Of a stretch of DNA of 64,000 nucleotides, positions 27,277-28,958 are shown in pieces. Source of the DNA: an uncultured Treponema sp. (GTDB taxonomy: Bacteria; Spirochaetota; Spirochaetia; Treponematales; Treponemataceae). The translations under genes and the position numbers were made by a program. The stretch lies in the NCBI GenBank assembly GCA_946535985.1, contig CAMNDY010000006.1, positions 1-64,000 of the forward strand, read 5' to 3'. Position 1 is the first letter of the stretch, and each line of letters opens with the position of its first letter. Below the pieces are notes generated by a model. It was not told where the DNA came from and ran no database searches. It saw only the letters and a list, made by a program, of their open reading frames with translations.

Positions 27277-28479
27277 TTATACAAGAGCTTTTAAAGCTTC
27301 TACTTTATCTGTCTTTTCCCAAGGGAAGTGGTCGCGTCCAAAGTGTCCGTAGCTGGCTGTCTTAGAATAAATTGGAGCTTTGAGACCTAAGGTTGCAGAG
27401 ATTCCCGCAGGAGTACAGTCAAATACCTTGAGAACAGCTGCTTCAATCTTTGTTTTCTCAACTTTTTCTGTTCCAAAGGTTTCTACCATAATGCTTACAG
27501 GAAAAGGAACTCCAATTGCATAGGCAAGTTCAACTTCGGCTCTGTCGGCAAGGCCTGCTGCAACAATGTTTTTTGCAATGTAACGGGCCATGTAGGCTGC
27601 AGAACGGTCAACCTTACTTGGATCTTTTCCGCTGAAGGCACCACCACCATGACGCCCCATTCCACCATAAGTATCTACAATGATTTTACGTCCTGTAAGA
27701 CCAGAGTCTCCATCAGGGCCACCTTTTACAAAGCGTCCTGTTGGGTTAATAAAGAACTTTGTTTTGCTGTCCAAAAGACCTGTTGGTTCAAGAACAGGCT
27801 TGATTATCTGTTCGATGATTGTTTTTTCAATTTCTTCATGTGAAATTTCAGGGTCATGCTGGTGAGAAACTACAACTGTATCAATGTGAACGGGCTTATA
27901 TCCGTCGTATTCAATTGTAACCTGAGATTTTGCATCTGGTCTGAGCCAAGGGATTTTTTTGCTCTTGCGGAGTTCTGCGGCTCTTATAAGAATCTGATGT
28001 GAATAATAAACAGGAGCAGGCATGAGGGTAGGGGTTTCGTTGCAAGCAAATCCGAACATCATTCCCTGGTCTCCTGCTCCCTGCTGACCTTCGTATTCCT
28101 TTAAGCCGCTTCCAACAACTCCCTGGCAGATATCATCAGACTGGGCGTGAAGACGGTTCATAAAGGTAAAGCTTTTGTAGTCTAGACCTTTGTCTTCGCT
28201 GTCGTAGCCTATTTCTTTTGCAACATTGCGGGCAATTTCTTCGACCTTTGAGTTGAACTGTTCAAAATCGATGTCCTGTTTTAAAAATCTTATTTCGCCA
28301 CCAACAAGAACAAAGTTTGTTGTAGCAAAAGTTTCGCAGGCAACATGTGCTTCCGGATCAAGGCTAAGACAATAATCAAGAATACCATCCGAAATCTGGT
28401 CACAAAGCTTGTCTGGATGACCTTCTCCAACTGATTCTGATGTAAATAAATAGTGATTTTTGTTTAAGATAGTGTCCAT
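27277..28479 (-). CDS. metK: S-adenosylmethionine synthetase
   Basis: Makes SAM from methionine and ATP. 400 residues, family length. [20 protein letters not shown] at the N-terminus (His and Asp of the active site), [20 protein letters not shown] near residue 130, and [19 protein letters not shown] near 265 holding the phosphate-binding loop. A strong AGAGGAGG ribosome site precedes the ATG. The 5' region to about 28600 contains a small GTCTAAGAC palindrome and a TATAAT on the minus strand; no SAM riboswitch class was recognised. Confidence 0.97.
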
Positions 28480-28653
28480 ATCAGGACCTCCTCTTTAGCA
28501 AGATTTAAGGTGTCTAAGACATCCCCTTCCGTTCTGCAATTTCGGTTAAATCAACGGATTAAAAATACTATATTACAAAGAATGAAATATATCAATATTA
28601 TAGAAAAAAAATATAGATGAAATTAAAAAAAATCGCTTCCACTCATTTTAGTA
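28480..28653. other. AT-rich 5' region of metK
   Basis: Contains the metK leader (a short GTCTTAGAC stem region) and, on the minus strand, a TATAAT near 28597-28602. No gene seen. Confidence 0.4.
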
Positions 28654-28818
28654 TCCGCATTATATATGAATTCAATAAGCGGGTCCCAGCGACGGAAAAA
28701 AAAGCAAGGTATCCCCCGGCAGCCGTGCGCCAGCCGACGTAAACGCGGCTGACCCACTGCCGGTTCCCCCTTACTTTCTTTTTCCTGCGTCCCGCATATT
28801 TCTTTTATATAATGCGGA
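28654..28818. mobile_element. 165-bp MITE-like palindromic element
   Basis: Perfect 13-bp terminal inverted repeats TCCGCATTATATA (28654-28666) and TATATAATGCGGA (28806-28818) bound a GC-rich core. Inside are nested complementary arms: GGAAAAAAAAGCAAGG with CCTTACTTTCTTTTTCC, CCGGCAG with CTGCCGG, and CAGCCG with CGGCTG at the centre. The whole can fold as one long stem. An 88-codon minus-strand ORF across it is a by-product of the core. No clear target-site duplication. A non-autonomous element or a structured RNA are the two readings. Confidence 0.7.
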
Positions 28819-28958
28819 AGGCATATAAATAGTTTTGCGCGATTTTTTAGAATGGAATCTTTGTAAAAATTGATAACAATATGGTGCATATTGCATTTTT
28901 TTCTATAATATTATATTTTTATAAACGGTAGGGGTATTATTTCTCACGGAGTTTTTTA
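28819..28958. other. AT-rich promoter region of the CBM48 gene
   Basis: Contains several TATAAT-like strings (ATAATATTATATTTTTATAA around 28904-28924). No gene seen. Confidence 0.4.

Follow-up and report, generated by a model that had tools for sequence, protein, structure and literature searches.

A palindromic element in a Treponema contig as a copy of a widespread, apparently unnamed hairpin family of gut and rumen treponemes

What kind of unit is the long palindrome that lies in the AT-rich DNA of this Treponema contig, where does it end, and has it moved? It occupies positions 28654-28818 (165 bp) of the window (the whole 64,000-nucleotide stretch that was analysed), and is flanked by a divergent gene pair: a minus-strand gene that starts at 28479, which we take to encode S-adenosylmethionine synthetase, and a plus-strand gene that runs from 28959. 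The first-pass annotation had described it as one long stem with perfect 13-bp ends and a GC-rich centre, and had suggested a non-autonomous mobile element or a structured RNA from a multicopy family. Reverse-complement checks and folding confirm this geometry. The left arm TCCGCATTATATA (28654-28666, plus strand), the second nesting level, is the exact reverse complement of the right arm TATATAATGCGGA (28806-28818, plus strand). G+C content is 52% over the palindrome and 62% in its core, compared with 30% in the 505 flanking bases examined. In the minimum-energy fold the palindrome extends beyond 165 bp, the 13-bp arms being enclosed by an outermost, terminator-like stem in which an A-tract side (AAAAAATCGC, 28627-28636, plus strand) pairs with a T-tract side (GCGATTTTTT, 28839-28848, plus strand). 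The minimum free energy is -69.9 kcal/mol for the plus strand (28640-28832; -43.6 +/- 4.1 in 200 shuffles) and -99.5 for the minus strand (28624-28852; -61.5 +/- 4.1 in shuffles, z -9.3, 0 of 200 as good).

The conserved piece is a 113-nt hairpin core on the minus strand (28681-28793, 5'-GGGACGCAGG...CCGTCGCTGGGACCC-3'), recognised from the copies in the same genome and by model R1, against which the window copy scores 59.7 bits. The core reads GGGACGC..GCTGGGACCC on the minus strand (GGGTCCC..GCGTCCC in the plus-strand form) and comprises a GGG/CCC base stem, an asymmetric internal loop (ACGCA / GTCGCTGGGA), an inner stem and an apical hairpin, which in the window copy is CCGGCAG..CTGCCGG (28716-28763 in the minus-strand fold). 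The genome (148 contigs, 86% complete) carries the element in eight places: the window copy, six more full or near-full copies, and one on contig C76 with both ends kept and a different middle. A further eight matches were identified in the sister species G026. These copies, together with those across the genus, bear out the predicted multicopy family and exclude a single sequence without homologues. The core is common to all seven full or near-full copies. Because four of them (on C7, C94, C15 and C12) match only 28678/9-28793, whereas those on C10 and C76 and two checked sister-species copies match out to about 28848-28860 on the right, the core can be read from the alignments as the common unit, with the 13-bp arms belonging to one subfamily. 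The left 13-bp arm occurs with changes on C10, C38 and C76 and in the G026 copies, and is absent from C7, C94, C15 and C12; A-tract/T-tract pairs equivalent to the outermost stem are found on C10, C38 and C76. The edges of the element had thus been misjudged in the first-pass annotation. Its remark that spurious proteins arise from such cores fits a mechanical ORF of 88 aa across the element (28623-28889, minus strand), which we judge spurious: the frame meets stops in the copies on C10, C38 and C15 and changes length on C12. The C76 copy (L030, C76:6277-6537) retains arms and core ends around a middle of ~150 bp with other hairpins (CTAGGGGCTCTGCCCCTA; AAAAATTGC..GCAATTTTT). Elsewhere, in L168, L086 and L116, another small hairpin (GGCAAAACGC..GCGTTTTGCC or a closely similar sequence) lies within the core at a position that varies per copy.

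The family is widespread and patchy. The pattern GGGTCCCAGCRACG-N40..70-CTGCGTCCC was found in at least 120 stretches of a collection of named genomes; all 80 matches listed belong to Treponema, Treponemataceae or Spirochaetaceae, mostly in rumen and gut assemblies, and viral contigs gave 0 matches to the core pattern. Of 392 genomes of the phylum, 10 contain the other-strand pattern GGGACGCNG-N40..70-CGNNGCTGGGACCC, nine from the genus and one from a sister genus; the control gave a single hit. By model R1, 26 of 59 genomes of the genus have 1-27 copies and 33 have none, near-complete ones included, while 6 of 78 genomes of the order are positive. Matches were obtained in 60 of 390 genomes of a larger order set, a scan in which up to ten candidates per genome were scored and copy numbers are lower bounds. 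Of these genomes, 46 belong to the same genus, four to other genera of the family, two to family f3 (good scores) and eight to family f5 (poor scores). The f5 matches were taken as chance; the two that were read (L270 and L271) lack the diagnostic letters. In the f3 genome G083, two copies (L267 and L268) keep GGGACGC and GCTGGGACCC with a changed loop, and a third keeps only GCTGGGACCC. Genome G053 is ~94% identical to a carrier over one locus, yet is without copies by model R1. Rfam returned sub-threshold matches but none above the gathering score for the window segment 28300-29200 and nine loci, and no description of this family was found in open-licence PMC literature. The element is a copy of a widespread hairpin family in gut and rumen treponemes that is apparently unnamed.

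The fold is conserved by paired changes. We aligned 29 diverse copies (alignment A1, exact-pattern hits with core lengths of 68-74), in which the search pattern itself fixed some of the invariant letters; here and in the other comparisons the copies are phylogenetically non-independent. The diagnostic letters are invariant in 29 of 29 copies (in part a product of that pattern), and the internal loop of 5 nt against 10 nt, also partly demanded by it, is almost invariant. The apical region is the part of the core most variable between species, and core length ranges from about 70 nt in the shortest form to 113 nt in the window. Across the arms with base stem and the inner stem, 92.6% of cells are paired compared with 67.6% in shuffles, and 212 cells are double-changed compared with 69.5, values reached by 0 of 500 shuffles in both cases; double changes occur in 22 of the 29 pairs of these stems. 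Four of five covariation measures beat all 500 shuffles and the fifth beats 499, and pairing drops to 42-57% in slid versions of the stems. G-U cells outnumber A-C cells (51 vs 12, or 37 vs 12 without the boundary pair, p 0.0005), which identifies the window's minus strand as the one that folds, for RNA and single-stranded DNA alike. Covariation and strand polarity thus back the earlier suggestion of a structured RNA, and equally a single-stranded DNA hairpin; covariation alone is no proof of selection on an RNA.

Outside the core, the arms belong to the locus. In the 162 of 171 copies with enough flank from the contig end, 12.05 of 14 outer positions are paired, compared with 7.35 for arms taken from different copies (at most 7.70 in 200 trials). 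A T5 run is present in the 3' flank of 101 of these copies, an A5 run in the 5' flank of 86, and both in 81; the runs are the wrong way round in 5 and 7 copies, respectively. The layout of an intrinsic terminator (stem and T-run, preceded by an A-run) is therefore found, though not in every copy, and the A-tract/T-tract arms make the whole element look, from its sequence, like a bidirectional intrinsic terminator. Terminal inverted repeats of the MITE type, common to all copies, were not found, the arms being locus-specific in the wider family. We compared 101 non-orthologous pairs, drawn from 55 copies, whose interiors are equal in length and at least 93% identical and whose flanks have no 12-mer in common. 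Identity is 0.82-0.94 at flanking bases 1-2 and ~0.5-0.65 at bases 3-8 outside the core. A 71-bp interior is letter-for-letter the same in different stems (e.g., L068, L087 and L168). Slow compensatory drift cannot explain the arms because the inner stem, equally free to drift, is unchanged. The sequences would fit either a core that moves, with local arms, or cores that are homogenised.

Sites without the element were identified in related species. At the orthologous site in G019 (flanks 80-83% identical over the search hits), 28599-28878 of the window is missing. Genome G024 lacks element and arms at one site of G004 and shares a second, with a single-letter difference in the interior and matched differences in the two arms. 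At this second site, ordinary two-way terminators are found in G014 and G003 but not in G002. For most of 13 copies compared among five related species (G395, G352, G004, G024 and G053; L342 without G024), the site is empty in at least one relative. G024 has ordinary terminators at the L344 and L345 sites, as does G053 for L344, and ordinary bidirectional terminators occur at orthologous sites in relatives including G352. Copies are shared with G395 at L324 and L345, G004 has a truncated copy at L302, and copies persist at orthologous sites in species with 67-88% identical flanks. Loss is not always separable from gain, because the closest relatives are other species, mostly with 75-97% identical flanks. 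The proposal of a non-autonomous mobile element is well supported by the patchy multicopy spread, the identical interiors at unrelated sites, the sharp boundary and the species lacking element and arms at a site, but a transposase, a clean target duplication or a strain-level empty site was not found. Other sequences were seen at the compared sites. Another dispersed palindrome (GCGCGATATCG.GCTACA..) fills gaps in G352 (L404) and G053 (L411) where a relative has the hairpin element, and a different palindromic insert (CACACGGATTC..GAATCCGTGTGG) is present in G024 and G004 (L409 and L410) where G352 has it. At one empty site (L384, G004:C4:323150-323650), GGAGCGTGAGACGC resembles an arm followed by the opening letters of a core since lost, which would make it a relic copy.

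At L329, the unoccupied site in G053 reads AGTAAGAAATGGACTACATAAG and the occupied one in G352 reads AGTAAAAAATGGGCT-core-AGACCATTTTTT..ATGGACTACATAAG, such that the left arm is the old sequence and the right arm its inverted copy, after which the old sequence occurs once more. No direct repeat was found consistently across the compared sites; L329 repeats ATGGACTA after the right arm, and a second L168 copy, in G395, has TTGTAAGAT on both sides. We scored arms against unoccupied sequences at 12 sites (20 relative sequences; relatives with the element or a long unrelated fill were left out). One arm fits the relative's sequence better than all 22 foreign arms at three of the 12 (L329, L342 and L319), with the L319 match holding in two of four relatives, in one of these by half a point. 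The match at L344 is marginal (one of two relatives, by one point), and at eight of the 12 sites the arms fit the empty site no better than foreign arms. One G004/G024 site was rejected as a case of an arm copied from a flank (best score 6, null maximum 8).

Cores also flip. Among 32 orthologous pairs, the core is the same way round in 24 and inverted in eight. Two of the eight were discarded as neighbouring copies rather than orthologues (both partners in L095 in one case and in L240 in the other), leaving six, of which the best are L119/L168, L141/L217, and L116 against L086 and L124. The L148/L240 inversion is doubtful, as L240 holds two copies, and L059/L329 are probably two independent insertions because the L329 copy is missing from G053, G395, G024 and G004. 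According to an excerpt of one report (PMC8604942), template switching between two short inverted repeats inverts spacers and homogenises arms; according to part of another (PMC8794818), it makes and mends hairpin arms and can create hairpins.

Placement was assessed with gene calls based on codon usage. After removal of copies too close to a contig end, 124 of the 171 were retained, 119 of them with a gene on both sides and none of these inside a gene (0/119). The folded strand is in line with tandem genes in 46 cases and against them in 21; 22 copies lie between convergent and 30 between divergent genes. The in-line excess (46 of the 67 tandem cases) has p 0.003, and copies in tandem pairs are nearer the upstream stop codons, yet 30 of 119 sit between divergent genes. 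Enrichment between convergent genes, as in SPRITE, was not detected (22/119 vs 44/308, p 0.30), nor was depletion between divergent genes (30/119 vs 87/308, p 0.55). Such a distribution is expected of insertions that are tolerated and in part used as terminators; as evidence for a dedicated terminator it is weak.

Candidate partner enzymes do not track the repeat. Among partly incomplete genomes, genes for Y1 (RAYT/IS200) transposases are present in 5 of 26 carriers and 7 of 33 non-carriers (Fisher p 1.0), and RVT_1 genes in 7 of 26 and 10 of 33 (Fisher p 1.0). The genome of the window, with its eight places, has no match to either family at 86% completeness. RAYT and reverse-transcriptase genes were therefore rejected as partners, as their presence does not follow that of the repeat. 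In nine clusters of neighbouring copies that were read, the genes are ordinary and different, and no recurrent enzyme or neighbour gene was identified.

How, then, should the family be explained? That it is a classical REP mobilised by a RAYT, or a derivative of a group II intron or other retroelement, we consider highly unlikely: extragenic palindromes with irregular stems, and a polarity that suits single-stranded DNA hairpins, speak for it, but Y1 and RVT_1 genes show no association and are unmatched in a genome with eight copies, and there is no GTAG or CGTC foot. Host selection on a structured RNA that serves as a protein-binding site, a terminator cap or a stabiliser of 3' ends, combined with conversion that makes interiors uniform within each genome, would account for the strong covariation, the invariant internal loop, the persistence at diverged orthologous sites and the agreement of the folded strand with tandem genes. 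It sits poorly with the absence from 33 of 59 genomes of the genus, with G053, and with the lack of a recurrent neighbour in the clusters read, and we regard it as rather improbable. Also unlikely is precise insertion of the core into the loops of pre-existing intrinsic terminators, whose stems would then be the arms. The arms do resemble bidirectional terminators, identical interiors do occur in unrelated stems, and ordinary bidirectional terminators stand at orthologous sites in G014, G003, G352, G024 and G053; but in no comparison does a relative's terminator stem have the arm sequence, the arms are wholly absent in several close relatives, and no remnant of a terminator loop remains between arms and core.

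We consider it likely that the element is a non-autonomous mobile hairpin (REP/MITE-like) whose bidirectional, terminator-like arms are made and kept complementary by template switching during replication. The unit that moves and is conserved would be the core, from GGG to CCC, folding on one strand as RNA or single-stranded DNA, and its invariant internal loop is probably the recognition site of a putative mobilising protein. The core would land in intergenic DNA, where one of the locus-specific, mutually complementary arms carries an A-tract and the other a T-tract, and the resemblance to a bidirectional terminator may render copies tolerable, and at times useful. At the hairpin, template switching would most likely make an arm by backward copying of a flank, keep the arms complementary as their sequence drifts, and flip the core within them. 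Against the mobile-hairpin reading count the failure to find an enzyme or a convincing target-site duplication, the eight of 12 sites where arms fit the empty site no better than foreign arms, and conversion as an alternative source of identical interiors; against its terminator component count the lack of convergent enrichment or divergent depletion, and the window copy itself, which sits between divergent genes.

A bolder version, which we put forward tentatively as a minority possibility, is that the mobile hairpin builds its own terminator: during or after insertion, the folded core would prime copying of the adjacent strand back on itself, giving a locus-specific stem. Every new copy would then receive a perfect stem made from its target and be at once a bidirectional terminator, and the family would represent a class of repeats whose ends are written anew at each site rather than inherited. 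Small palindromic repeats are usually recognised by constant ends, whereas the treponeme family has a constant core and local arms, which may be why no name was found in Rfam or the literature searched. Should the arms indeed be copied from the target, the family would provide numerous natural examples in which to test how perfect stems arise by template switching and how a mobile element can supply terminators without harm to the host.

Among known systems, the treponeme family agrees with MITEs in being short, non-coding and multicopy. The bcr1 element of the Bacillus cereus group is likewise a mobile palindromic repeat with a conserved RNA-like fold; its host phylum differs, and the likeness is one of description rather than of compared sequences. 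SPRITE of Streptococcus pneumoniae, in the section of the report available to us, resembles a Rho-independent terminator and has AAAA at its start and TTTT at its end. It shows strong enrichment between convergent genes, and had neither an identified mobiliser nor a comparable empty site (PMC3049150). Like SPRITE, RUP and BOX, the treponeme elements are short, non-coding, interspersed hairpins that insert into one another, but locus-specific arms around an invariant core do not feature in that section's description of the three (PMC3049150). The family also differs from SPRITE in its host phylum and in lacking convergent-gene enrichment, and we claim no sequence relation. REPs, as characterised in an excerpt of PMC3733652, are 20-40 bp long with a GTAG or CGTC foot; those of the CGTC type have stems of 8-9 bp and loops of 4-5 nt, have no dedicated transposase and occur in Spirochaetes. 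Hairpins resembling CGTC-type REPs (TGTCATTCCC..GGGAAT, behind a GTGGTTGAGT..ACCACC stretch) were observed separately at L371 (G506) and L377 (G130). REPs and REPINs share with the treponeme family the character of high-copy extragenic palindromes (PMC3733652); unlike them, the family has a 70-113 nt core, a conserved asymmetric internal loop and a foot of the form gY|GGGACGCAG in place of GTAG or CGTC. By analogy, SPRITE would be the nearest functional likeness and REP the nearest structural class. We file the family among the small mobile palindromic repeats, as an apparently undescribed one set apart from REP by length, foot and enzyme.
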